Of a stretch of 64,000 bases of DNA, positions 16,323 through 61,100 are shown in pieces. The DNA comes from an uncultured Chthonomonas sp. (GTDB lineage: Bacteria; Armatimonadota; Chthonomonadetes; Chthonomonadales; Chthonomonadaceae). The notes beneath the pieces were generated by a model. That model was not told where the DNA came from. It saw only the letters and a program-made list of their open reading frames with translations, and did no database searches. A program made the translations under genes and the position numbers. The number at the start of each line of letters is the position of its first letter. Position 1 is the first letter of the stretch. Where the stretch lies: positions 1-64,000 of the forward strand of contig CAIONQ010000108.1 in assembly GCA_903859705.1 (NCBI GenBank), written 5' to 3'.

Positions 16323-17120
16323 CTATTTCTTGCCTGAGACGTCTTTAATCAGATCGTCGAGAGCCTTAGAGGCACGCTCCGATGCAAACGGCTTATCGGG
16401 GTCTGCGTTACCACCACCGCCGCCAAACCCGCCGCCGCTGCCACCGGGAGGCGGGCCACCCGGTGCCATGCCGCCACTTCCACCGGGGCGCATTCCACCC
16501 ATACCGCCGCTCATTCCACCAGGAGGTCCGCCCATCATTCCACCGCCACTGCCACCGGGGCGACCACCCATCATGCCACCGCCGCCACTGCCTCCGGGGC
16601 CGCCACCCATCATACCGCCGCCGCCGCCAAATCCACCCCCACCGCCGCCACCACCGCGGCCTCCGCGTTGCGGGGTCATATCGGTAATGAGCTTGGTTTG
16701 TTCTGGCGTAAGCACAGCATTTACTGCGTCGAGCTTCTTTTTTGCATCTTCTTCGGGAAGCTTGTCTGCACTCTTGATCTCTGCCAGCAAAGGCGCAAGT
16801 TTCGACTTTTGATCGGCGGTAAGGCCTTTACCCTGTGCGGTTTCCACAGTAACGATGCTACTAACAAGGCGGCTGAGAGACCGACCGCTGTTTGCCTGAG
16901 ACCCGCCACCACCACCGCCTCCGCGGCCACCACCTGCACCGCCGCCTCCCCCACCAACGTTCCCCATCCCTGTGGATGGAGAGCCGGTTTTAGGAGTTGG
17001 TGTTTTCTCCGATCCAGTAATACTATACTTGTGGACCATAAAACCGCCCACGCCGCCAACCAGTAGGCTAAAAATAACCGGCGCTACGGTGGTGAGGGTA
17101 ATGGTTGAACTCTTCGCCAT
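16323..17120 (-). CDS. Glycine-rich membrane-anchored protein
   Basis: 265 aa from the ATG at 17120, with AAGGAG about 8 nt upstream. One TM helix (VAPVIFSLLVGGVGGFMV) follows a short positive N-terminus. A glycine run comes next, then a helical block with LTADQKSKLAPLLAEI and LTPEQTKLITDM, then a long GGGMMGG / PGGSGGG tract. The LTxxQ-type pairs resemble Spy/CpxP-like or zinc-resistance periplasmic proteins, but similarity is too weak to name it. The GGN-codon tract makes a strong low-complexity DNA stretch at 16400-16660. It stands alone between the dehydrogenases and the copper protein. Confidence 0.8.
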   Translation of the reverse strand: MAKSSTITLTTVAPVIFSLLVGGVGGFMVHKYSITGSEKTPTPKTGSPSTGMGNVGGGGGGAGGGRGGGGGGGSQANSGRSLSRLVSSIVTVETAQGKGLTADQKSKLAPLLAEIKSADKLPEEDAKKKLDAVNAVLTPEQTKLITDMTPQRGGRGGGGGGGGFGGGGGMMGGGPGGSGGGGMMGGRPGGSGGGMMGGPPGGMSGGMGGMRPGGSGGMAPGGPPPGGSGGGFGGGGGNADPDKPFASERASKALDDLIKDVSGKK

Positions 17121-17303: not shown

Positions 17304-18707
17304 CTAAGGTGCAGGATTTACGGGTCTGCGCTGCCTGCGGCCAGCACCGCCGCCGCTACCCAGCCCACCCAACATATCCAGCAAATCGGTAACCGGTTTG
17401 CCCTGAGAAATGTGCTCAGAATCTATGGTGTACCACACGAATGCAATGCACATTTCATCTGTTGTGGCCTCACCCCAGCCCACCTGCCTTGGAGGAGAGC
17501 TCGGATTGTGGGGATTGGCTGTGGAGTTATCGTATGTGGCTGCCAGTGCCAGGCTGGAGCCGGCGGGCAACTTTACAGGATCTCTATACATGTAGTTTGT
17601 TTGCCAGTTAAAATCCCATGCGGGCACGTTGACCAGCGTTTTACTGCTTTTATCCGGCATGTTGGCGGTAACCACCATCGATTTGCCCAGGAGGTGCATG
17701 TGTGGCATTACCTGGATGATAGAGGTTGGGTGCTGAAGCGGAACAATGGAGTTGCCCGTTGTTTGGTAGTGGGCCTCACCAGCAGGAATGTTGAGCGGTG
17801 CAAACACCGGCAGAATACGCAATCGCTTATCCACGCCCTTTTTGGCAAAATACAGGCCAATTCGAGATTGATCTGGCTCTACCTTGCCATCGGCATGGTA
17901 ATGGATCTGCAAAACCACATCGCTGCCCTTCTTAACAAGGGTGCCAACACCCTCTGGCAGCATATGGGGCATATTGCCCGGCGCCCAGCCGCCCAGCGCA
18001 CCTGTAGGGAAAATACCCAGTCCACCCTGCGCAAGATATCCTGGCTGGCCATCAGTCATAGCGGTTTCCAGTTTTTTGGCGGAACCTGCGGCATCCAGAT
18101 AGGCAATTACATGGTGCACAACCCGTGTATTGCCCGGATGCACTTCCAACCCCGCAATATAAGTATCTTCTGTAAAGCCTGTTGGAAGCACGAAGCAGCG
18201 ATACACATCGCCCCCCTCCGCAGCCATTTTGTAAGGCCGAGGCAGCTCCAGAACCAGATCTGGCTTGCCAAGGCTCCAGCCGGTTGGGTTGGCGGGAACA
18301 GCGGCTGGTACCTTAATGTGATCGCCTTCCGGCGCACCGGCCGCAGCCCATGCTTTGATCACACCGATCTCCTCAGTGCTCAACTTACACTCATCCACAA
18401 ACTCACCATGTGACTCGGCATGCCACGGAGGCATGAAGCGAGTAGCCGTTACATCTGCAATCTGAGCCGCTCTCTTTTTTGCATCCGCATAGGTTAGGAG
18501 CGAGAAAGGAGCGATTTCGCCAGGCCGATGGCAGCTTGCGCAGTTTTTAACAAGGATGGGTGCCACATCGCGCGCAAAGGTTACCTTTGCGCCGGGCTTG
18601 CCACTTGGGGAGGCTGCAGTTGCGTGCCTGGCTGCACCAATAGCAGACAACCCCACAGATGCTGCTGCAAGCAATATCCAAACTCGGTTTCTGGAGAACA
18701 GGCTCAT
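17304..18707 (-). CDS. Cytochrome c domain fused to copper type II monooxygenase-like domain
   Basis: 467 aa with a signal peptide. An N-terminal haem-binding site CASCH (residues 56-60) lies in a small cytochrome c-like domain. The rest matches the ascorbate-dependent type II copper monooxygenase fold of peptidylglycine hydroxylase and dopamine beta-hydroxylase. All six expected copper ligands can be placed: His198-His199 (VVHHVIAYLD), His269 (LQIHYH), His336 and His338 (MPHMHLLGKSM) and Met419 (DEMCIAF). AGGAG lies upstream of the ATG. The haem domain could replace ascorbate as electron donor, which is inference. A redoxin follows upstream on the same strand. Confidence 0.88.
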   Translation of the reverse strand: MSLFSRNRVWILLAAASVGLSAIGAARHATAASPSGKPGAKVTFARDVAPILVKNCASCHRPGEIAPFSLLTYADAKKRAAQIADVTATRFMPPWHAESHGEFVDECKLSTEEIGVIKAWAAAGAPEGDHIKVPAAVPANPTGWSLGKPDLVLELPRPYKMAAEGGDVYRCFVLPTGFTEDTYIAGLEVHPGNTRVVHHVIAYLDAAGSAKKLETAMTDGQPGYLAQGGLGIFPTGALGGWAPGNMPHMLPEGVGTLVKKGSDVVLQIHYHADGKVEPDQSRIGLYFAKKGVDKRLRILPVFAPLNIPAGEAHYQTTGNSIVPLQHPTSIIQVMPHMHLLGKSMVVTANMPDKSSKTLVNVPAWDFNWQTNYMYRDPVKLPAGSSLALAATYDNSTANPHNPSSPPRQVGWGEATTDEMCIAFVWYTIDSEHISQGKPVTDLLDMLGGLGSGGGAGRRQRRPVNPAP

Positions 18708-18804
18708 TCACAGCTCCTATATCTTGCGGATAGATCTGGTTGTATGCCAATTGATCGCCGTGCCAGATGTAATCTAGCAAGCAGGCATATTTGAACAGTT
18801 TGAG

Positions 18805-19410
18805 TTACAGTGGCGGAGCTATGTAACAGCCAATCGCTTTTGTAACGTGAGATTTTATCTTCTCAGGATGCCCGGAGCTAACTGCATCCAGTGCATCACG
18901 AAGTTCGTGTGTGGTTGCCTTATACCGCGCATTGCCAAAATCGACGTTTCGATTATCGATTCTGCCACGGTAAGCGGTAGATCCATCTGGCATAAGGATC
19001 GCCACTTCGGGCGTAATCGTTGCGCCACATCGATGCACCAGTTTGTGCCCGGCATCCAGTAGTGCAGGCACCTTCAGGCTAAACTCTGCGAGGTGCTTCT
19101 TAACTGCATTTCGGCTAAGAGTTGCATCCGTGTACACCAGATAGAAGCGCACGCCCATAGGGCTGTACTTCTCGTAAATGCGTTCGATTTCGGGCGCATA
19201 GGCATTCGCGATGGGGCAATCTATAGTGGTGAAGATAAGCACTGAAGGTTTGCCACTATGCTGTGCCAGATCTACCGGGTTGGCAGGAGCACCATTCATA
19301 TCGATGGCACCAGCCCGAAAGGTTTGCGGAGGGCCAGCCGAAACTGAAGACCCGGGCACGACAGCTGCAAGAACCATTAGCGCTGAAATTCCAGATAGAA
19401 GCCGTTTCAT
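18805..19410 (-). CDS. Exported redoxin (AhpC/TSA-thioredoxin fold)
   Basis: 201 aa from the ATG at 19410, where a signal peptide (MKRLLSGISALMVLAAVV) begins; an upstream ATG near 19452 is less likely. The thioredoxin-like core has a single conserved cysteine in TTIDCPIANAY (Cys65), then RFYLVYTDATLSR and ITPEVAILMPDG, which carries the cis-Pro. The second Cys of a CxxC is absent (CPIA), as in peroxiredoxin-like members. It precedes the cytochrome/copper protein by 97 bp on the same strand. In planctomycete-type genomes I recall redoxins beside such copper monooxygenases, which suggests a shared electron or copper-handling role. Function not proven. Confidence 0.85.
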   Translation of the reverse strand: MKRLLSGISALMVLAAVVPGSSVSAGPPQTFRAGAIDMNGAPANPVDLAQHSGKPSVLIFTTIDCPIANAYAPEIERIYEKYSPMGVRFYLVYTDATLSRNAVKKHLAEFSLKVPALLDAGHKLVHRCGATITPEVAILMPDGSTAYRGRIDNRNVDFGNARYKATTHELRDALDAVSSGHPEKIKSHVTKAIGCYIAPPL

Positions 19411-19513: not shown

Positions 19514-20977
19514 TTATGCGGTAGATTTGCCCGGAAGCATGATTACGACCGTTGTTCCTGTGTTAACGATAGAACTAATTGCAAGGGTGCCGCCGTGCGC
19601 CTTCACAATTGAATCGCAGATGGCAAGCCCAAGACCGCTGCCCGCATGCCGGGAACGTGCAACATCGGAGCGGAAGAAGCGTTCGCGCACACGGTCGAGA
19701 TCCTCAGAGCGAATGCCGGGCCCACGATCGCTCACTTCTATGCGGAGCTGATTATTCGCCTCATCCGCCGTTCCAACTACGGTGATGGGAGTGCCGGGTT
19801 CCGAATAGTTTAGAGAGTTTACAAACAGATTTTCGAACACGCGCTGCATCAGGCTGTAGGAACCAAAAGCAGCGAGATTGCCATTGACCTGGACACGAAA
19901 ACGGGAAGACTCCTCTGGAACAAACGATTCGAGAGCGGCTTCGATGATATCAGAAATCTCAATCGCCTCGGGCTCAAACAGCTTTTGATCGGCATCGGCA
20001 CGTGCAAGCAGCAGAAGCTGATCGACCAGGCGGCTCATGGACTCGGCTGTTATCTGCGTTTTTTCTATGGTAACCCTGTACTCCTCGGCCGTCCTATCCG
20101 TGGCGAGCGCAAGGCTGGTATTGCCACGGAGTACGGTTAAAGGAGTGCGCAGTTCATGGGAGGCGTCGGCTGTGAATTGTGCCTGCTGCTTAAACGCATG
20201 ATCTACACGGGCAAACATACTATTCAGAGTTTCGGCCAATTCGGAGAACTCATCGTTGCTGGTTACAGGTAGGCGCTCAGAGAGGTTTTCGCCGCTAATT
20301 CTATCGGCTGCTTCCCGAATATCGCGCACCGGGCGCATGGCGCGGGCAGTAAGAAGATAACCCGCTACAACAGAGACTATAAGTAGCACCGGGATACAGC
20401 GCAAAAGATCTCGGGTTACCTCTGAGATTTCTGCATTGTAATCGCGCAGGTCGCGGGCAGACTGCAACACAAAGGGCACCTCATCTTCGCTCTGCACGGG
20501 CATGGTAATTACCCGTAACTGCATGCTGCCAATGAAGACTGTGCTGTGTACCGTTTCGCCCTTAAAGGCTCTAGCAATGGCTGCGTGGTCCAGTTGAGAA
20601 TCGTTCAAACCTTTCAGGTAACTGGTTCCATCCGGGGCGAATGCGCGCGGCCGATAGATGCCGGTAAGGCTTTCGTCTGGCCTGGGAAGAGGCGGTGAAT
20701 GGGCTGTATCTTCATCTTGCACAAACAATCGGCTGCCAATTTGCCCTGAACCTAGCTCTTCTCGCACCGCATCACGCGCAACCAGGGGAATGCTGTTCCA
20801 GAGCTTAACCAGAGCCACAGACCGATCGGTGAGCTGAGAATCCACAAGTGCCAGCAGGCGAACCTTTAAAATTGCTCGGAATAACCCGCAAAAGCCCAGC
20901 AGGCAGATGGCCACAATCCCACTGTTCCACAACAGCAGGCCAGCCCTTACCGAGCCTTTGCTGCCAACGGCTTTCAT
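19514..20977 (-). CDS. Membrane sensor histidine kinase
   Basis: 487 aa. TM1 at about residues 15-37, a periplasmic sensor of about 150 aa without a recognisable fold, TM2 at about 192-212, HAMP, then HisKA with phospho-acceptor His274 in DASHELRTPL and a HATPase domain (FENLFVNSLNYS as N-box, DRGPGIR and GSGLGLAI as G-boxes). It overlaps the response-regulator gene by ATGA (20974-20977), so the pair is translationally coupled. The cue is unknown. The redoxin and copper protein downstream on the same strand make a redox or metal stimulus conceivable, but the sensor shows no His/Met/Cys cluster that supports it. Confidence 0.95.
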   Translation of the reverse strand: MKAVGSKGSVRAGLLLWNSGIVAICLLGFCGLFRAILKVRLLALVDSQLTDRSVALVKLWNSIPLVARDAVREELGSGQIGSRLFVQDEDTAHSPPLPRPDESLTGIYRPRAFAPDGTSYLKGLNDSQLDHAAIARAFKGETVHSTVFIGSMQLRVITMPVQSEDEVPFVLQSARDLRDYNAEISEVTRDLLRCIPVLLIVSVVAGYLLTARAMRPVRDIREAADRISGENLSERLPVTSNDEFSELAETLNSMFARVDHAFKQQAQFTADASHELRTPLTVLRGNTSLALATDRTAEEYRVTIEKTQITAESMSRLVDQLLLLARADADQKLFEPEAIEISDIIEAALESFVPEESSRFRVQVNGNLAAFGSYSLMQRVFENLFVNSLNYSEPGTPITVVGTADEANNQLRIEVSDRGPGIRSEDLDRVRERFFRSDVARSRHAGSGLGLAICDSIVKAHGGTLAISSIVNTGTTVVIMLPGKSTA

Positions 20978-21681
20978 TCCGCAGCACCATTATCCTTACG
21001 AGCGGCAACCTCTGTACGAGGCTCCAACAGGTAGCCCACCCCGTATACCGTGTGGATGAGGCGAATATCGTTTCCTGAATCTACTTTTTTACGCAGGTTC
21101 TTAACATGAACGTCGATGGTGTTGGACATACTACTGTCATCTCGCCACACTACGTCCAGAATAGCTTCGCGTGTAAGCACAGAGCCTTCCCGGGAGGCAA
21201 GTGCTTCCAGAAGCTCATATTCGCGCTGGGTTAGGTCCAGCCGCTTCCCAGCCCGGTATGCTGAGCTCGTTCTGGTATCAATCTCAAGATCGCTAACCCG
21301 GATGCGCCGCCCTTTGTGCACCCTGTCTCGCCTGAGCGCTGCCTGTACCCGAGCCAGCAATTCCGAAAAATCGAAGGGTTTGGGCAGGTAATCATCGGCA
21401 CCAAGCTCCAGACCCTTAACTCTATCTTTAACAGAGTCTCTCGCGGTTAGCATAATTATGGGAGTTGTAATGCGCCTATCTCGCAGTTCTGTGCAAACAC
21501 TCCAGCCATCGCGCCCGGGCAGCATAATATCCAGAATTATGAGGGCAAAGGTGCGTTCTAGGGCAATACTAAGAGCCTGTTCTCCGTTTGGCGCAATGGT
21601 AACGGAGTAGCCGGCTTCTGTGAGCCCGCGGCTAATAAATTCAGAAATCTCTTGCTGATCTTCCACTAGCAGCACACGCAT
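20974..21681 (-). CDS. OmpR/PhoB-family response regulator
   Basis: 235 aa from the ATG at 21681, with GGGAG 8 nt or so upstream; an upstream ATG at 21714 lacks this. The receiver has the phosphorylated Asp51 (LIILDIMLPGRDG), Thr/Ser switch in MLTA and Lys101 (YLPKPFD). A winged-helix DNA-binding domain follows (LTQREYELLEALASREGSVL, then TIDVHVKNLRKKVD, IHTVYGVGYLL). It is upstream of and overlaps its kinase. The intergenic space to the divergent transporter (21682-21850) is where its operator would be expected; I saw no clear direct repeat there. Confidence 0.95.
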   Translation of the reverse strand: MRVLLVEDQQEISEFISRGLTEAGYSVTIAPNGEQALSIALERTFALIILDIMLPGRDGWSVCTELRDRRITTPIIMLTARDSVKDRVKGLELGADDYLPKPFDFSELLARVQAALRRDRVHKGRRIRVSDLEIDTRTSSAYRAGKRLDLTQREYELLEALASREGSVLTREAILDVVWRDDSSMSNTIDVHVKNLRKKVDSGNDIRLIHTVYGVGYLLEPRTEVAARKDNGAAE

Positions 21682-21850
21682 CAAGCCGTCTCCCGTATCG
21701 TATCTCGATTCCATTGCGCTCGCGATGGGTTTGCGAGGCCGCTTTGCAGGTGGAAATATAGCGTCTCATGGTAAAATCAAAGCTGGTCTGCCATGCGAGC
21801 CGTTGTTCGCTGGCACGAAAGCCTTTTGTTACTACAAGGAGTCCGCTGGT

Positions 21851-38822: not shown

Positions 38823-41800
38823 TCAGTCTACAAACGCAAACTCGTTGGTGCAAAGCATTGTCTGCACAAAGCGCTCCCAGGCCGTAAGGCTGCGGCTGTT
38901 GTTATGTGGTCCGGCAAACTCGCTGGCAGCGCTCCACTGTTTGCCGGGCTGCCCGGCATTCAGGATTGGTGCCCAAGTGAAGTTGTCATCCAGATCGTTA
39001 TCCCCACACTCCACCACAAAATCAATGGTATCTCCCGTGTGAACCGGTATGGCGGCGATATCCGATTTTGCCTCTGTTCCGAATAACTTCCAGCTTGCAA
39101 CAACACCTGTTGCACTGCTAACCACGGATGCAACAATGCCATCTCCCATTTTGCCAGCATGTTTAACAGAGCCAGAGAGCGATACCGTACAATCAGCAGG
39201 TGCCACCCATCGGCGTATAATCGCATGCTCTTTGTCGCCACCCGGCGCGCCGCCGGTACTGCTGAGGAACATGCTGCCAAGCTCCGGATCTGGCAGTGTG
39301 GGCCCGGCAGCCCAGTTTTGCCCGGTCCAGGTACGCAGCGGATGAAAGGCTGTTATTTTACCGCCTTCACACTTACCCCAGCCGTATTGCCACACGGGCA
39401 GGCTCTCTTTCGTAGTAGCGATCTCTGGAGCTGCCGCCGGTTCACCAGCAAACTGCCCGGCTGCTTTGATCTCTCTTGCAGATGCCGCTCGACCAAATAG
39501 CTGCATCGTGAGCGCATTTATGCGTTCTTGCAGTGTGCCCTGGCAATTATGCGCCAGCCTAATTGCCTGCTCTGCACTGAACGGGGAGTTCATAAAGAAG
39601 AGCGCCTGCTGGGGCGAAATGGTTGTGTAGCGCTGCGGAGTAAGGGTGTCTGGATTGGCAAAGTCAAAAACTCTGAATAACGGTGGCAGATTATCCCGAT
39701 CGACATTTCCATATACTGTTCTGCGCCTTGCGTATGGCATTACCAGAACATCGAATGGGGCTCCGCCTGCGGTTCTATCAATCTCGCCACCGGCCGCCAA
39801 CAGTGAATCTCGCATCTCCTCAAAATCCAGCCGTTTACGGTTTTGTCTCCATATCAATCTGTTCTCGGGATCCAGGCTAGCGCACTCCGGCCGGTTGTCG
39901 CTTCGCATCTGGTACGCCTGGCTCAGCATGATAGTGCGGATAAGGTGTTTGATCGACCATCCATTATCTACAAAGTCCAGCGCAAGCCAATCGAGCAAGG
40001 CAGGGTTGGAGGGTGCTTCTCCACGGGAGCCAAAATCTCCCGGAGTTTTTACAATTGGCTCTCCAAACAGGTGCATCCAGGCCCTGTTCACAAATACGCG
40101 AGCAGTTAGAGGATTATCGGGCGATGCGATGGCTTCTGCAAGCTCTGCTCTCCCGCTGCCGCGAGTAAAGGTGTGCCTCTTAGTGCCAGAAAGTGCTGCA
40201 AGATATCTTCTTGGCACCTCTTCGCCGGGGCGCTCAGAATCGCCGCGCAGCAGGATATGTGCGTTTGCAGGCGATGGGTTATCTGCCAGGATGAACGCAT
40301 GATCTGGTGAGGCCGGGGAGTTTTGCAGTGCAATAATCTGCCTTCGCAGGGCTGCAAGATGGCTCTGTTCTGGCAGAGTTAATGCCTGTTCAATGGCACC
40401 TCCCGGCAGGGCAAGTGCGCCATTGTCGGAGTAGAAAACCTGTCGCACACCCTCCTGTGCAGGAACAGGCAATGCCGAAGGCGGCGGGCTGCCATTTTGC
40501 CGGGCCGCTTTCAGGGTTCTTTGCCACTGGGCGTCAACATCTGCAAACAGGCGTTGATAGCGGGTTGCCACTTCTGCCAGGTTTTTTGGTGGTGCCCCGG
40601 AGAACATCATTGCCACCTGCCAGTTCAGGCGCGCTCTGGTTTCTGAATTCTGCCTGTAGAGCTTCGCCAGGGCCGGGCCTTTTGTTGCATATTCTGCTGG
40701 TTTGAGCGCCGCAAAACCGTGCCAGGGTGTGAAGATAGGATCGAGATCCCCTTTTGTGTTCTCCAGCACCTGCCGCCACCGGTTAAGGGTTTGAGGTTCC
40801 AGGCCATTGGGCGCGGTATCTGCGGCGTTACCAGCAGGTTTGGTGGCAGCTGCTAGCAGGTAAGCGCCGGAACGGGAGATACTATCCGATTGAATTTTGG
40901 CCCGTGCTGCATCGAGATATAGCTGCACATCCTGCTGCTTCCTGGTTAGCTCACGATTAAACTCGGCGAAGCGGGCATCGTCTTTTGCGCCAGTGGTTAA
41001 CGATTCCAGGCGAGTAGTGCAGCTCGAGAGAATACCAGTTAGCGAATAGTAATCTGCCATTGGCACAGGGTCAAACTTATGATCGTGGCAGCGCGCACAG
41101 GTTACGGTAAGCGCCTGGGTACCGCGCATTATCACATCAATCTGATCGTCGATTACATCCTGCTGATTGCCACCAAATCTGCGGCCCAGCGTAAGAAATC
41201 CGCATGCAGCGAGATCATCTTTATCTACCGAAATACCCTCTGCCCCGGCGGCTATTTGCAATTTCAGGAACTTATCGTAGGGTAGATCAGCGTTGAGAGA
41301 TCGGATAACCCAGTCTCGATAACTGTGCGATCCCGATGGCTGATTATCCGGCATGCCCAGCTCGGTAACCGTATCCGAGTAACGGGCAATATCCAGCCAT
41401 AGCCTGCCCCACCGCTCTCCATAACCACGATCTGCAAGCAGGCCATCCACCAGGCGTTGCCACGCATCCGGGCGAGTATCGGTCACAAAGGCGGTTATCT
41501 GAGCGGCAGTGGGTGGCAGCCCCGTAACATCGTAGTAGGCACGGCGGCACAGAGTGCGCCGATCTGCGGGGGGAGAGGGCTTGAGGCCATTCTGGCTCAA
41601 TGTGGCAAAAATAAACCTATCGAAGGGAACAAGGGGCCAGGTTGGATCCGAAACGGGAGGCAATGAGTAGCGTTGAACGGGCTTGAGCGACCACAAATCT
41701 GCGGATACGGGGCGTGCAGCTGCCGGCCAAACGGCGCCGGATTTAATCCAGGTTTGAATGGCGCTTATCTCATCTGCAGAGAGGCGGCCGCCGGGCGGCA

Positions 41801-42107
41801 TCGGTGTTGGTCCGGAACCAGTTATTGCAAGAACCAGGGCACTTTTTTCAGGAGAGCCAGGCACAACGGTGCGCTTGCCGGAACGCATTGGCCGCGCGAG
41901 ATCGGAGGCAGAATCCAGATGCAATCCCCCTCTGGGGGCTGATCCACTATGGCATGATAGGCACTTTGCAGCCAGAACCGGGCGAACGCGCTTCTCAAAG
42001 AAATCGGTAGGGTCTGCATGGGCGGGCAGGTGAATTGCGCATGCCAGAACAGCAGCTACCATGAGGAAGCGGGTGTTGCGCGTAAGAAGTACGGAAAGGT
42101 GGATCAT
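38823..42107 (-). CDS. PSCyt1-DUF1549-DUF1553 protein with C-terminal beta-domain (pair 2)
   Basis: 1094 aa, the longest of the four paralogues. I start at the ATG at 42107, where a signal peptide begins (TRNTRFLMVAAVLACAIHLPAHA). Cytochrome domain with CLSCH, DUF1549 with YGERWGRLWLDIARYSDTV and CARCHDHKFDP, then DUF1553 with VFVNRAWMHLFGEPIVKTPGDFG. After DUF1553's RLAHNCQGTLQERINALTMQ, an extra block of about 160 aa (LPVWQYGWGKCEGGKITAFH up to DNDLDDNFTWAPIL) is predicted to be a beta-sandwich, before the usual ending LCTNEFAFVD. The insert may bind a carbohydrate. It directly follows the HhH glycosylase gene. Confidence 0.92.
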   Translation of the reverse strand: MIHLSVLLTRNTRFLMVAAVLACAIHLPAHADPTDFFEKRVRPVLAAKCLSCHSGSAPRGGLHLDSASDLARPMRSGKRTVVPGSPEKSALVLAITGSGPTPMPPGGRLSADEISAIQTWIKSGAVWPAAARPVSADLWSLKPVQRYSLPPVSDPTWPLVPFDRFIFATLSQNGLKPSPPADRRTLCRRAYYDVTGLPPTAAQITAFVTDTRPDAWQRLVDGLLADRGYGERWGRLWLDIARYSDTVTELGMPDNQPSGSHSYRDWVIRSLNADLPYDKFLKLQIAAGAEGISVDKDDLAACGFLTLGRRFGGNQQDVIDDQIDVIMRGTQALTVTCARCHDHKFDPVPMADYYSLTGILSSCTTRLESLTTGAKDDARFAEFNRELTRKQQDVQLYLDAARAKIQSDSISRSGAYLLAAATKPAGNAADTAPNGLEPQTLNRWRQVLENTKGDLDPIFTPWHGFAALKPAEYATKGPALAKLYRQNSETRARLNWQVAMMFSGAPPKNLAEVATRYQRLFADVDAQWQRTLKAARQNGSPPPSALPVPAQEGVRQVFYSDNGALALPGGAIEQALTLPEQSHLAALRRQIIALQNSPASPDHAFILADNPSPANAHILLRGDSERPGEEVPRRYLAALSGTKRHTFTRGSGRAELAEAIASPDNPLTARVFVNRAWMHLFGEPIVKTPGDFGSRGEAPSNPALLDWLALDFVDNGWSIKHLIRTIMLSQAYQMRSDNRPECASLDPENRLIWRQNRKRLDFEEMRDSLLAAGGEIDRTAGGAPFDVLVMPYARRRTVYGNVDRDNLPPLFRVFDFANPDTLTPQRYTTISPQQALFFMNSPFSAEQAIRLAHNCQGTLQERINALTMQLFGRAASAREIKAAGQFAGEPAAAPEIATTKESLPVWQYGWGKCEGGKITAFHPLRTWTGQNWAAGPTLPDPELGSMFLSSTGGAPGGDKEHAIIRRWVAPADCTVSLSGSVKHAGKMGDGIVASVVSSATGVVASWKLFGTEAKSDIAAIPVHTGDTIDFVVECGDNDLDDNFTWAPILNAGQPGKQWSAASEFAGPHNNSRSLTAWERFVQTMLCTNEFAFVD

Positions 42108-51736: not shown

Positions 51737-54700
51737 TCAGCGAACGAAAATAAACTCTTTGAGGTTGAAAATAACATGGCACAGGCCCGCCCATGCTTCC
51801 ACCTCGGCAGGTGAGCCTACAGTGGCACCCTGAACAAAGGCAGAGGCTGCGGCCAGTTCGCGGTTATCTGGCAGGCGCCCAAGTGCCGTTTGGTAGGCAA
51901 ACTGGATGCGATTTACGGTGGTGCCAGGTTGCTTTAACAGCTGCTTGGCCCATACGGTTGCCTGTGATACCACCAGCGGATCGTTCAGCAGGGTAAGCGC
52001 CTGAGCCGGAACGCTGGAGACAGTGCGGTGCCCCATGGTGGTGGCTGGTACAGGCATATCAAAAGCAGAAAGCATGGCTACCGGGAAGCCACGGCGCACG
52101 CTGATATACAGGCTCCGGCGGCCAGCGCCATCCAATGGCCCGGAGGAAGGTGCCCCTCGGCCAATAGTGAAGCTGGTGAGGTAAGGCATTACCGAGGGCC
52201 CGCCAACAGTAGAATCCAGGCGGCCAGAGACTGCCAGAATGGAATCCCGGATACTCTCAGCTTCCAGCCGCTGGATGGGCATTCTGTGTACCAGCTTATT
52301 CAGGGGGTCGGCGGCATCCGCAGGCGGGTTGGCGCTGCTATCCATACGATAGGTGCTGGAGAGAAGCATCAGCCGATGCATCTTTTTCATCGACCAGCCC
52401 TGCTTCACGAATTCCGTAGCGAGCCAATCCAGAAGGGGCTGGTTGGTGGGGCGTTGGCCCATAACGCCAAAGTCATCTGGCGTTCTCACAATGCCTTCAG
52501 CAAAGTGGTGCTGCCAGATTCTGTTTACCATAACGCGCGCAAATAGCGGATTGGATGCAGATGCCAGATTGGATGCCAGTTCCAGCCGGCCACAGCCAGT
52601 GGAGGATCCATAGTCCTGCTTGCCAACCACGGCTTCCAGAAAGCGGCGTGGAGCGGTTGCACCCAGATTGCGGTAGTTGCCGCGCAGGTGAACCTTTTCA
52701 TTCTCGCCAGTACCATCTTCGGCAGCGAGTGCGAGCGAAGGTTCTTCTATCTGACTCTCGGCCTTTGTGCGTGCGGCTTCAGTTTCTGCAATTTCTTTAC
52801 AGGCCACATCGGGCAGGGTAGCGTAGCGTGCCGCCCATGCCGCCAGGTTCGCCTCTTCGGGAGTGCGGGTTGCATCAGGTGCCGTTAAGGCCTTATCCAG
52901 GACTGTTCGGTAAGCAGCCAATAGGCTGGCCCGATCATGCACAGCCGGATCTAGAATTGCCGCCGTCAGGCTTGGGAGTGGTGCTTCTGCCGGTGGATCT
53001 CCCGCGGTAAAACCAACCTTATCCAGCGCGATGTACCCGGGATCGATATCCTGGAGTTCAATATAAGCGCGATGACCAATCCAGTGGCTAACATCCTGAA
53101 CGTACCATCGCATGGGCTCGGAATCGCTGCCGATGAGGAGGCCACCGTACAGAGGATCTCGCAGGATCTGAAGGCCATCCACAATCAATCGAAGGCGCGC
53201 CCCCTTACCTGCCATGCGGTACAGAATGCGCGGGCGAGTTATGGTGAACGTTTGAGATTGCAGTGTGCCATGCAGCTTGTCGGATAACACCCCGCTATCA
53301 CCGGCGGCTGCCGCCAGGGCTCCTGCCACCTGGGATGTTGCTCCGGGTGTGAAGTGAAGCGAGATAGTGTTGCCACCACTGGAGGCGAATGCCTGCCCGG
53401 TACTGCTCCACAATGGAAGATTTTTAGCTGCACCCTCCCCCGGGCGATACCAGATTATGCCTGCCTGAGCGGCCCGAGCTTTTTCCTGCTGATCCTTTAG
53501 CTGAGCACGCACACGCTCAAGTGCGCTGGCAAACTGATCTGCGGGCACATCCTTAAGTTGGGCGGCTGCAAAGCCGGGTGCAGAAGCATCTACCTTATCA
53601 GCGGTTAGTGCCGGTGCCCATGCAGCAGCAAATACTCCATTTGGAGAAGCGGTGGCCGTGCGTGCTGCGTTCAGCACGGTTGCCCGCTCTTTAGCTCGGG
53701 CTTCCGTTAGCTGCTTCATCACCGAGGCAGAGGGCGGGGCCCCAACCTGTGCAAACTGTTTTCTGGTGCTGCGAATGATGCCGTACAGCCCGTAGTAATC
53801 CTTAACGCTAATGGCATCAAACTTATGATCGTGGCAGCGAGCACAGCCCAGCCCTACGGCGAGAAATGCCTTGCCAAGGGTATCGATGTCGTTATCCATG
53901 TGGTCTGCCTGATCATCCATCAGGTCCACAGGAGAGTGCGTGCCAGACCCAAGCCAGTAGAAACCGGTTCCGAGTACAGATTCGTTAAAGCCCTTTTGAG
54001 AATTTAATCTGGGATTTGGGATGAGATCGCCTGCGATGTGCTCCATGGCAAACTGCCGGTAGTTAACGTCGGCATTGAGTGCGCGAATAACATAATCGCG
54101 ATAGTGGTAGGCTCCGGGCTTTTCCAGATCAAATTCATGGCCATCGGTTTCCGCAAACCGCACAAGATCCAGCCAGTGCCGGGCCCAGCGCTCGCCATAG
54201 TGGGGCGATGCCAGCAGCCTATCTACCAGATGAGCGTACGCATCTGGCGACTTATCATTCAGGAAGTCGCCAATTTCGGTGGGAGTAGGTGGCAGGCCCG
54301 TTAGATCGAAAGTTACTCGGCGAATAAATGTGAGCCGATTAGCGGGAGGAGCGGGCTGCAGGTTCTTTGCCTCAAGCCCAGCAAGAATGAATCGATCAAT
54401 GGGATTGCGTACCCAGGCTGCGTTTTTGACAGCTGGCACGGCAGGAGGCACTACGGGCTGCCAGGCCCAGTGCGAGGCACGCCGGGCAGCAAGGTTGAAG
54501 GCCGCCTTAGCAGCGCCCGGGGTTGCCTTGCCTGCTGTGCTGCCTGCTTTGCCGGCGTTCCAGATTGCGCCGCGTTTTACCCACTCGGTTAGAACTGCAA
54601 TTTGTGCATCCGTTAACCGCGCACGCGGCGGCATGGAGAGCCCTTTTTCTGTGTATGTAACGGCTTTGATAATCAGGCTGGATTCTGGATGCCCCGGCAC

Positions 54701-54952
54701 CACGGAGGCTCCGCGTACGCCACCCTTTAATAGATCTGCTCTGGAGGCGATGCGCAGCCCACCGTTGGAAGCACTGGCGGGCCCGCCATGGCAACCAAGG
54801 CATTGATCGGCAAGCAGAGGGCGCACTTGTTTCTCGAAGTACTCGATATCTTCTGGTTTTGGTTTTGCATCATCGAGGGCAAATGCCGCTACAGAGAAAC
54901 CGAGCGCTACGGCAGACAGAATGGAGACAGAGATCGTCCTGATGAAAGTCAT
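51737..54952 (-). CDS. PSCyt1-DUF1549-DUF1553 protein with central beta-domain (pair 3)
   Basis: 1071 aa from the ATG at 54952, which lies 11 nt after the upstream stop (AGGA 7 nt ahead) and begins a signal peptide (TFIRTISVSILSAVALGFSV). Cytochrome motif CLGCH, DUF1549 with CARCHDHKFDAISVKDYYGLY, DUF1553 with MVNRIWQHHFAEGIVRTPDDFG. Between them about 200 aa form an extra beta-rich domain (LPLWSSTGQAFASSGGNTIS up to YIELQDIDPGYIALDKVGFT), reminiscent of galactose-binding-like folds. It ends with the family's FNLKEFIFVR instead of NTNEF. Preceded by the DCC gene and the HEAT-like gene in one unit. Confidence 0.92.
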   Translation of the reverse strand: MTFIRTISVSILSAVALGFSVAAFALDDAKPKPEDIEYFEKQVRPLLADQCLGCHGGPASASNGGLRIASRADLLKGGVRGASVVPGHPESSLIIKAVTYTEKGLSMPPRARLTDAQIAVLTEWVKRGAIWNAGKAGSTAGKATPGAAKAAFNLAARRASHWAWQPVVPPAVPAVKNAAWVRNPIDRFILAGLEAKNLQPAPPANRLTFIRRVTFDLTGLPPTPTEIGDFLNDKSPDAYAHLVDRLLASPHYGERWARHWLDLVRFAETDGHEFDLEKPGAYHYRDYVIRALNADVNYRQFAMEHIAGDLIPNPRLNSQKGFNESVLGTGFYWLGSGTHSPVDLMDDQADHMDNDIDTLGKAFLAVGLGCARCHDHKFDAISVKDYYGLYGIIRSTRKQFAQVGAPPSASVMKQLTEARAKERATVLNAARTATASPNGVFAAAWAPALTADKVDASAPGFAAAQLKDVPADQFASALERVRAQLKDQQEKARAAQAGIIWYRPGEGAAKNLPLWSSTGQAFASSGGNTISLHFTPGATSQVAGALAAAAGDSGVLSDKLHGTLQSQTFTITRPRILYRMAGKGARLRLIVDGLQILRDPLYGGLLIGSDSEPMRWYVQDVSHWIGHRAYIELQDIDPGYIALDKVGFTAGDPPAEAPLPSLTAAILDPAVHDRASLLAAYRTVLDKALTAPDATRTPEEANLAAWAARYATLPDVACKEIAETEAARTKAESQIEEPSLALAAEDGTGENEKVHLRGNYRNLGATAPRRFLEAVVGKQDYGSSTGCGRLELASNLASASNPLFARVMVNRIWQHHFAEGIVRTPDDFGVMGQRPTNQPLLDWLATEFVKQGWSMKKMHRLMLLSSTYRMDSSANPPADAADPLNKLVHRMPIQRLEAESIRDSILAVSGRLDSTVGGPSVMPYLTSFTIGRGAPSSGPLDGAGRRSLYISVRRGFPVAMLSAFDMPVPATTMGHRTVSSVPAQALTLLNDPLVVSQATVWAKQLLKQPGTTVNRIQFAYQTALGRLPDNRELAAASAFVQGATVGSPAEVEAWAGLCHVIFNLKEFIFVR

Positions 54953-58124: not shown

Positions 58125-61100
58125 TCAATCCACAAACACAAACTCATTGGTGTTGATTAACATGCGGCACATGTTGGCAAGGCCGTTACGTTGTGCGTAG
58201 GATGCCAGGGCCGCCTGTTCTGTATGGCGCGCATTGCGGCCATATATCAGTCTGCATGCCAGATCAATGCGAGCTGGCAGCGTGGGTGCAGCTTTTTCCA
58301 GGCGGGCAGCAAACTGCTCACTCTGGCGTATAACGAACGGATCGTTGCGCATAGTGAGGGCCTGTAGCGGCGTGAGAGTGGTGTTTCTTACCGGTGTGAG
58401 AGCGTTTGGATCTGCGGCATCTAGCGTTTCCAGAAATGGATCTGGAACCGATCTCACAATAAACTCATACACCGTGCGGCGGAAAACGGCCGGGTTGGTT
58501 TGTTTATCTGCCGCCGAATAATCGTAGATTGGCGAGTGATCATCTTTAAACCGGAAGGGCTCAAAACCAGGGCCGCCAGCTTGTGTATTGAGGGAACCGC
58601 TTACTGACAGGATGCTATCACGGATCTCCTCTGCTTCCAGTCGGCGCCGGTTCATTCGCCACAGAAGGCGGTTATCCGCATCTAGTCTATTTCCGGCTGC
58701 GCCTGTTGCAGAATCGGAACTCTGGCGGTACACTGCCGAGTTCATAATGAGGCGATGCAGCGATTTGATAGACTGGCCGTTCTGCAAGAACCAGGAAGCC
58801 AGCCAATCCAACAAATGTGGGTGGGATGGTGTGCCGCCATTGTTGCCAAAGTCGTTGGGAGTTTCTACAATCCCGCGTGTAAAGTGATGCTGCCATACCC
58901 TGTTGACAATGGACCGCCATGTGAGCGTGTTTTGTGGCGATGCCAACCATGCCGCAAGGCGGCCTCTTGCCTGGCCCTCACCGCCCGGTCCACCGAGATC
59001 GGAAGGCTGGGTTACCATGCACGATAGTGCTCCCGGGCTAAGAAGTTCGCCTTTTTGTTCCACATCACCTCGCTTAAGCAGCCATATGGGGCGTGGTTCG
59101 TGCGGAACGGCAGCGTAAACCATGCTTGCGGCAGGAAGCGCCGCTATTTCAGCATCTACGCTCTTCATGGCAAGAATGGCGCTATCTCTCGCGAGTTTAA
59201 CTTCGGTGGGTGCCATTCTTTCCAAAAGAGCTATTCGGGCTGCTCGGAGGGACGCTCGTTTCGCTGCCAACAAATCTCTCTTCACTTGAAGCGCTGCCAG
59301 CCCTCCTGTATTTAAATCCAGCAGTGCAAAGCGGCTATCGTAGCCATCCGTGAGGAATTTAACCGACCATCGGCCCGCCTCGATGCTCTGATCAGCGGTT
59401 ACCGCACAGCCTGCCGCGGCATTTCTGTTGCCGGATATAACCTGCATCTCAGCAAGCGCAAACACGTAATCGCCCGTGCGCTTCCAAAAGCGGGTTGCTG
59501 TTAGCCGTACATACCTGGCTTCAACTGCGGAGGGCAATGAGATGATAACGGGGCTATCCCCGGGGTTCGGTACATCCGCTGCCGTTTCATCCCGAATGAT
59601 GGTTTGAGAGCTAAAATCGGCGGTATCGGATACAGCAACACGGTAACGAACAGGGAAACCGAAGCCGGGTGTATCTGCAAAATCGGTGGGACGGGCTGGC
59701 AGAATGCGAATATGATCTACAGGCACGCGTGTTCCAAGATCGATCTGTACCCAGCGGGATACATCCGCCTTATCTGAAATATCGGAATGAAACCCATTGG
59801 AAGGACTGGCTGCCACTGGTGCTGCTGGCAAAACGATGGCGTTAAGATCATTAGCAACGCTCTGGATAGCATCTTCCATCTGCGTTATCTCAGCGCTTTT
59901 CTGGCTCTTAATCTGCTCATCCAGACTGTCTCGCTGTTTCACCAGGGCCGCGCGTTTGGCGCGCAATTTTTCACCCTGGATCATGTGCGACCGATCGTAA
60001 TAGGGCCTATCCCCACGATCTATGCCCGAGAAGACGGCCTGCAGGCGGTAGTAATCCCGTTGATTGATGGGATCGAACTTATGATCGTGGCAGCGAGCAC
60101 AGTGTATGGTAACGCTGTTAAAGGTGCTGATGACGGTAGCAACCATGTCATCACGATCGATAAGGCGCGTTTTGTCTTTCTCAACAGTACCTTCTGCAAG
60201 CTCTACATTCCCCACAAAATCCCATGGTCCGGCAGCCAGCATGCCAGTGGCGATGGTTGCCTGGGGATTATCTGGAAAGAGTACGTCGCCAGCTACCTGC
60301 TCTTTTATAAACCGCGAGTAGGGTTTATCGGAGTTAAAAGCGGCAATAACATAGTCTCGATACGGCCACGCGTGTTCACGCTTTTTATCTTTGTCATAAC
60401 CATGCGTATCACCATAGTGAACTACATCCAGCCAGTGACGGCCCCAGCGCTCACCGTATGCCGGGGATGCCAGCAGGCGATCGATTAGCCTGGCATACGC
60501 AGCTGGCCGAGTATCATTCATATACTCCCGTGTTTGCTGTTCTGTGGGTGGCAGGCCAGTAAGGTCGTAAACTGCGCGCCGCAGCAGTGTCCTCTTATCG
60601 GCCTCTGGCGATGGCTTCAGGCCTTTTTTGGTGAGCGTTGCAAGGATGTAACGGTCGATAGGTGTTTTGGACCAGTGATCTCCGGGGATTATCGGAGGAG
60701 ATTGAGGCTTAATTGGCTGCAGTGCCCAGCCAGTTTTGCGCAAAGGTACGTGAGGCGTGGATGGCCCTCCTGCCGGATAAGGTGCTCCCATTTCGATCCA
60801 TTTGGTGAGCACTTGTAGCTCGCTGGCGGTAAGCATTGCACCGGGCGGCATTGCGGGCACACCGTTTGCATGGCGCACGGCACGAAGAAGCAGGCTGGAG
60901 GAAACATCCTTGGCCGAAATTGCAGCACCAGAAGCGCCGCCCTTAATAAACCCCGCTGCAGTATCCAGCGCCAGGCCGCCTTTTGCCATGGGGCCGGAAT
61001 GGCAAGCCAGGCAATTTTTGACAATCAAGGGGCGAACAGAGGTTTCGAAGAACTCTGTGCCCTGTGAAGGGGGTGCCGCATTTGTGGCTGAAGCAACAGC

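Follow-up and report, generated by a model that had tools for sequence, protein, structure and literature searches.

Gene Content of the Locus

The window (the whole stretch of DNA analyzed, 64,000 nucleotides) contains a gene for a 467-residue protein, P0001, in which a c-type cytochrome is fused to a copper core of the PHM/DBH type. Positions of its domains and motifs, together with those of the neighboring genes, are given in Table 1. Judged by its sequence, P0001 is best read as an exported, periplasmic protein. It passes the Pfam model Cu2_monoox_C (PF03712; 34.1 bits, cut-off 23) and falls just below the cut-off for Cu2_monooxygen (26.3 bits, cut-off 30). The protein encoded beside it, P0002, passes the Pfam Redoxin/AhpC-TSA model with 48.1 bits against a cut-off of 26.6. 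A first-pass annotation of the same DNA had described a CASCH heme site at the N-terminus of a copper monooxygenase, an exported redoxin and a two-component system. All three are present: the heme site lies in the same ORF as the PHM-type core, the redoxin gene adjoins, and the two-component system occupies 19514-21714.

Table 1. Features of the cytochrome-PHM gene and its neighbors. Residue numbers are those of P0001 unless stated otherwise; the rightmost column gives the basis of most assignments.
Feature	Position in window	Strand	Basis
Cytochrome c-PHM-like copper protein P0001, 467 aa	17304..18707	-	ORF, Pfam, profile, model, fold comparison
Sec-type signal peptide, residues 1-31	18615..18707	-	by eye from sequence
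Cytochrome c domain, residues 36-128	18324..18602	-	Pfam, model, couplings
CASCH heme-attachment motif, residues 56-60	18528..18542	-	sequence, conservation
MPPW, residues 92-95	18423..18434	-	M92 conserved; role inferred
PHM-like double jelly-roll core, residues 147-444	17376..18269	-	profile and fold comparison
H198-H199, predicted CuH ligands (PHM H107, H108)	18111..18116	-	alignment
H269, predicted CuH ligand (PHM H172)	17901..17903	-	alignment
H336-M-H338, predicted CuM ligands (PHM H242, H244)	17694..17702	-	alignment
WDFNWQ motif, residues 364-369, CuM subdomain, family signature	17601..17618	-	search pattern, so conservation partly selected for
M419, predicted CuM ligand (PHM M314), in TTDEMC	17451..17453	-	alignment
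Exported redoxin P0002, 201 aa, conserved C65 and C195 (GC near C-terminus)	18805..19410	-	Pfam, alignment
Sensor histidine kinase; closest NCBIfam model TIGR01386 (copS-like), score under its cut-off; unit membership uncertain	19514..20977	-	
OmpR-type response regulator; closest NCBIfam model TIGR01387 (copR-like), score under its cut-off; unit membership uncertain	20974..21714	-	
Gly/Met-rich protein, downstream neighbor, syntenic in same genus; unit membership uncertain	16323..17117	-	

Copper Core and Its Ligands

The AlphaFold model of P0001 (pLDDT 89.2, pTM 0.85) matches rat PHM with Z 23.5 and an rmsd of 2.6 over 266 aligned residues, and human DBH with Z 22.3. The next fold is PNGase F at Z 8.1, and Foldseek agrees. 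A profile built from 83 family rows likewise matches PHM structures (E 6e-12), superposing the HH pair, the His of VLQVHY and the HxH motif; its C-terminal part alone gives a weak match (E 0.6), in which TTDEMC/SSDEMC aligns with the EMC motif of PHM and M419 falls on the EMC Met.

The six copper ligands proposed in the first-pass annotation (H198, H199, H269, H336, H338, and M419) stand where it placed them and align with those of PHM. They are invariant in 85 of 85 aligned relatives, which were themselves found by motif search. A second set, free of motif selection, comprised 49 genes picked by PF03712 only, one per Armatimonadota genus; CxxCH, M92 and all six ligands occur together in 48 of these, and the exception (L112) is frameshifted, with its cytochrome in another frame. 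In the largest alignment, of 204 sequences after at most seven duplicates and a single short row had been dropped, each ligand is present in 203 or 204. H271 was also tried as the third CuH ligand and rejected, being conserved in just 58/85 and 27/49; since this sole competitor is not conserved, H269 is supported in that role. The core of P0001 carries the CuH His3 and CuM His2Met ligands of the copper type II ascorbate-dependent monooxygenase (PHM/DBH) superfamily.

This pattern bears on whether the PHM-like part is an enzyme at all. A module that binds or stores copper in the cell envelope would suit the fact that no substrate or product is known, as well as the three paralogues in one genome, but exactly the six catalytic ligands and their surrounding residues are invariant over several phyla, and we regard such a module as very unlikely.

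In PHM, residues R240, N316, and Y318 bind the peptide carboxylate. The corresponding residues of P0001 are M334, I421, and F423; across the 83 rows, position 421 is I, L, V, F or A, position 423 is mostly F, and Arg is not among the seven commonest residues at 334. With these positions replaced, a glycine-extended peptide is an improbable substrate and peptide amidation an unlikely reaction. A disulfide between C171 and C420 was considered and rejected, both cysteines being present in only 26 of the 83 rows.

The Fused Cytochrome Domain

We call the N-terminal domain cytochrome c-like by its motif, the helices of the model and residue couplings; its match to Pfam Cytochrome_CBB3 (PF13442) scores 19.0 bits, under the cut-off of 27. 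CxxCH is kept in 83 of 83 covered rows of the 85-protein alignment, where the conservation of M92 is partly selected for, MPPW having been a search pattern. In the 49-genus set chosen by PF03712 only, all 48 covered genes retain both, CxxCH and a distal Met being hallmarks of class I cytochromes c; M92 is the likely sixth heme ligand. Mean-field coupling analysis used first 145 sequences (effective number 114) and later 204 (effective number 154). The strongest couplings within the domain, V48-V116/I117, are consistent with its first helix packing against its last and look real. The fold matches listed for the P0001 model, a list filled by the copper core, include no cytochrome.

The cytochrome lies in the same ORF as the copper core in 48/49 genes and in 67/68 further PF03712-selected ORFs (from 67 stretches); the one exception among the latter lies where a contig end truncates the stretch. 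Within Armatimonadota, the cytochrome is effectively always fused to the copper core. The genome also encodes cytochrome c assembly proteins (3 PF01578 matches). A search for cytochrome b561 (PF03188) gave no match, but its control likewise matched nowhere, so the blank does not count as absence. Three more sub-threshold CBB3 matches lie on the reverse strand of the window, at 41745-41984, 54578-54820 and 60795-61028, in long frames of 1147, 1216, and 1030 aa, respectively.

Distribution of the Family

A pattern scan covering one genome per species returned at least 542 confirmed relatives, and the 80 loci kept come from Armatimonadota, Planctomycetota, Poribacteria, Acidobacteriota, Rokubacteria, and a few other groups. 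PF03712 was found in 126 of 291 Armatimonadota genomes, including 17 of 17 own-family genomes in a listing that omits 145 of the genomes without a match, and in 0 of 14 control genomes. The cytochrome-PHM family is widespread in bacteria, not rare. Three PF03712 genes occur in the genome studied here: the window gene; L001, in which redoxin, cytochrome and PHM-like core are fused into 652 residues; and a copy of 464 residues that lacks an upstream redoxin.

Rows left out were the window copy L002, L061 and L161 at contig ends, the frameshifted L112, and L098, in which the cytochrome was not found in the ORF as called. Five duplicates were left out of the 100-gene redoxin set described below, and three rows out of the 145-row tree.

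The Redoxin Partner

The link between redoxin and copper enzyme is stronger than the adjacency first reported. A first survey of 84 proteins found the redoxin fused at the N-terminus in 31, fused at the C-terminus in one (L081), encoded adjacently upstream in 17 and absent from 31, with four undecidable. Including own-family genomes and the window brought the set to 100 genes and these counts to 36, 1, 22, 37, and 4, so that of 96 assessable genes 59 have a redoxin linked by fusion or adjacency and 37 lack one. In the 49-genus PF03712 set it is linked in 36 (33 fused, three adjacent) and absent from 13. That the redoxin is a true partner of the cytochrome-PHM protein is supported, because in many relatives the two form one polypeptide. 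It is a recurrent but dispensable, accessory partner, since its presence changed state at least 18 times on the 145-row tree; switches between fused and adjacent number at least four on a 100-row tree.

The GC at 194-195 is kept in all 50 linked redoxins, as is C65 in all that cover the site, one row of the 50 being cut before it. No association was found between redoxin presence and C107, C171 or C420 over nine independent pairs, a comparison of little power. An AlphaFold model of the fused paralogue gives its redoxin part the fold of the thioredoxin-like proteins 2ywi (Geobacillus), 3u5r (Sinorhizobium) and 2cvb/2ywo (Thermus), with Z 20.4-21.1, and 2ywi shares the C and GC positions of P0002. 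Those structures are single-domain chains whose titles give no function, whereas the redoxin here is linked or fused to a copper enzyme.

The genome contains just four matches to P0002, two of which sit with cytochrome-PHM genes. A third (L154:2720-3826) is a tandem AhpC-redoxin whose second half has CPCS and GCAI motifs; its 6-kb stretch holds no copper enzyme among its ORFs.

Two-Component System and Other Neighbors

For both parts of the two-component system the best NCBIfam model is a copper-sensing one, though each remains under its cut-off: the kinase scored 239.2 bits against TIGR01386 (cut-off 292.55) and the regulator 253.4 bits against TIGR01387 (cut-off 279.2). Regulator, kinase, redoxin, enzyme and Gly/Met-rich protein follow in the same order in one other fetched genome of the genus. 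Genes beyond the unit are collinear there as well, and because the block as a whole is syntenic, the synteny of the unit says little about function. At the other 18 fetched enzyme loci, from own-family and own-order genomes, nothing matched the two-component system; it stands beside the enzyme gene only in the same genus.

The Gly/Met-rich protein contains LTxxQ-like motifs alongside repeated MMGG stretches, has no Pfam or NCBIfam match, and might bind copper. Elsewhere, most representatives of the largest flanking-gene clusters are rows from Poribacteria, which are close kin; at the level of gene clusters, the redoxin was the one shared partner recognized.

These neighbors matter for a second reading of the redoxin, as mainly a copper chaperone that does a Sco/TlpA-like job of loading the copper sites, while the cytochrome just senses or tethers. 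Its fusion or adjacency to a copper enzyme, its thioredoxin fold with two invariant cysteines, and the nearness of the two-component system to CopRS models would all fit. However, neither part reaches the cut-off of its model, and in other genera the system does not accompany the enzyme gene; the nearest relatives of known structure, 2ywi and 3u5r, are thioredoxin-like proteins without an assignment; and the redoxin's CPxxN plus GC pair differs from the CxxxC motif of Sco proteins. We consider a chaperone role of this kind unlikely.

The first-pass interpretation of the locus as a self-contained redox unit is partly supported. The redoxin holds as a true partner, although not an obligatory one, and the two-component system, beside the gene in a single genus, weakens the case for a unit that includes it. 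The underlying observation, a fusion of cytochrome and copper core with a redoxin partner, is confirmed.

Proposed Mechanism and Comparison with Known Enzymes

We think it probable, with moderate confidence, that P0001 is a periplasmic mono-heme, two-copper monooxygenase with an accessory redoxin. Electrons from the respiratory c-type pool would reduce the heme, which, going by the architecture, would stand in for ascorbate as reductant of the copper pair; O2 would be activated at CuM and the substrate hydroxylated. With less confidence, the C65/C195 pair of the redoxin may keep cysteines or copper of the enzyme in a working state.

The heme might instead serve as acceptor, in a dehydrogenase-like copper enzyme that oxidizes its substrate, sends the electrons to the respiratory chain and activates no O2. 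A c-type heme in the periplasm can pass electrons to the respiratory pool or take them from it, and cytochrome-like domains abound in the genome (24 PF13442 matches, nine over the cut-off); both points favor this scheme. What speaks against it is the CuM His2Met site, kept in 48/48, which PMC4846438 and PMC6123673 give as the O2-binding site in PHM and DBH; electron flow toward the chain appears improbable to us.

A finding that counts against the heme as donor comes from Nonomuraea gerenzanensis (NZ_LT559118.1), which encodes a PHM-like protein (L153:3596-4921; PF03712 29.7 bits). Like P0001 it has the ligand motifs, as HH, HYN, HMH and DEMC, but there is no cytochrome or redoxin in the same ORF; the copper core can therefore exist without a built-in donor. 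This protein has a lipoprotein-like signal.

Compared with PHM (rat 1phm, 5wja), P0001 has the same double jelly-roll core, CuH His3 and CuM His2Met sites and EMC motif; it differs in being bacterial, in its fused cytochrome c, in the changed R240/N316/Y318 positions, and in that ascorbate is not expected as reductant. DBH (human 4zel) shares the core and also has an extra N-terminal domain, which is a DOMON domain where P0001 has a c-type cytochrome; no heme pocket was found in the DOMON domain of DBH according to PMC4846438. PHM and DBH are classed among eukaryotic copper proteins in PMC7435645 (table) and PMC8812541, and no report of a cytochrome c-PHM or redoxin-PHM fusion was found in the accessible parts of the open-licence literature. 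Our verdict is that the cytochrome-PHM protein is a variant of a known enzyme kind and not a new kind.

More tentatively, and with rather low confidence, the family could form a further PHM/DBH class, driven by the respiratory chain through cytochrome c and equipped with a domain for thiol or copper maintenance. The Met loop of the heme domain (residues 96-103) may then dock on the CuM subdomain beside WDFNWQ, and electrons, given that docking, might enter on the O2-site side instead of at CuH. In the interdomain couplings, residues 96-103 group with 359-363, the segment before WDFNWQ. Shuffled-partner sets reached this cluster in 75%, 64%, 0.4%, and 0.1% of cases over four settings; in random halves of the data, couplings 97-361 and 98-362 appeared in one half only and the cluster in neither.

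According to PMC4846438 and PMC6123673, the electron path across the 11 Å between the coppers of PHM and DBH is still debated. A bacterial family with its own heme offers a spectroscopic handle on electron entry and would make the question of the reductant directly testable, and we value the cytochrome-PHM protein as a tractable bacterial model of electron entry into PHM-type enzymes. Several phyla that are common among environmental genomes would also gain a predicted oxygenase.

Variant Architectures

Eleven relatives (L108, L128, L130, L131, L132, L134, L136, L139, L143, L149, and L152) make up a subfamily in which HMHxRG replaces HMHLLG and HYH is absent. The forms are HMHVRG, HMHFRG and HMHLRG, with HMHVRA in L134, and the redoxin is fused in 11/11; these proteins possibly act on another substrate. 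Two other fused proteins (L047:3844-7308 and L107:3587-6421) have about 580 and 360 residues, respectively, ahead of the redoxin, with no Pfam match. The redoxin-cytochrome-PHM protein at L152:3842-5935 carries a C-terminal EF-hand.
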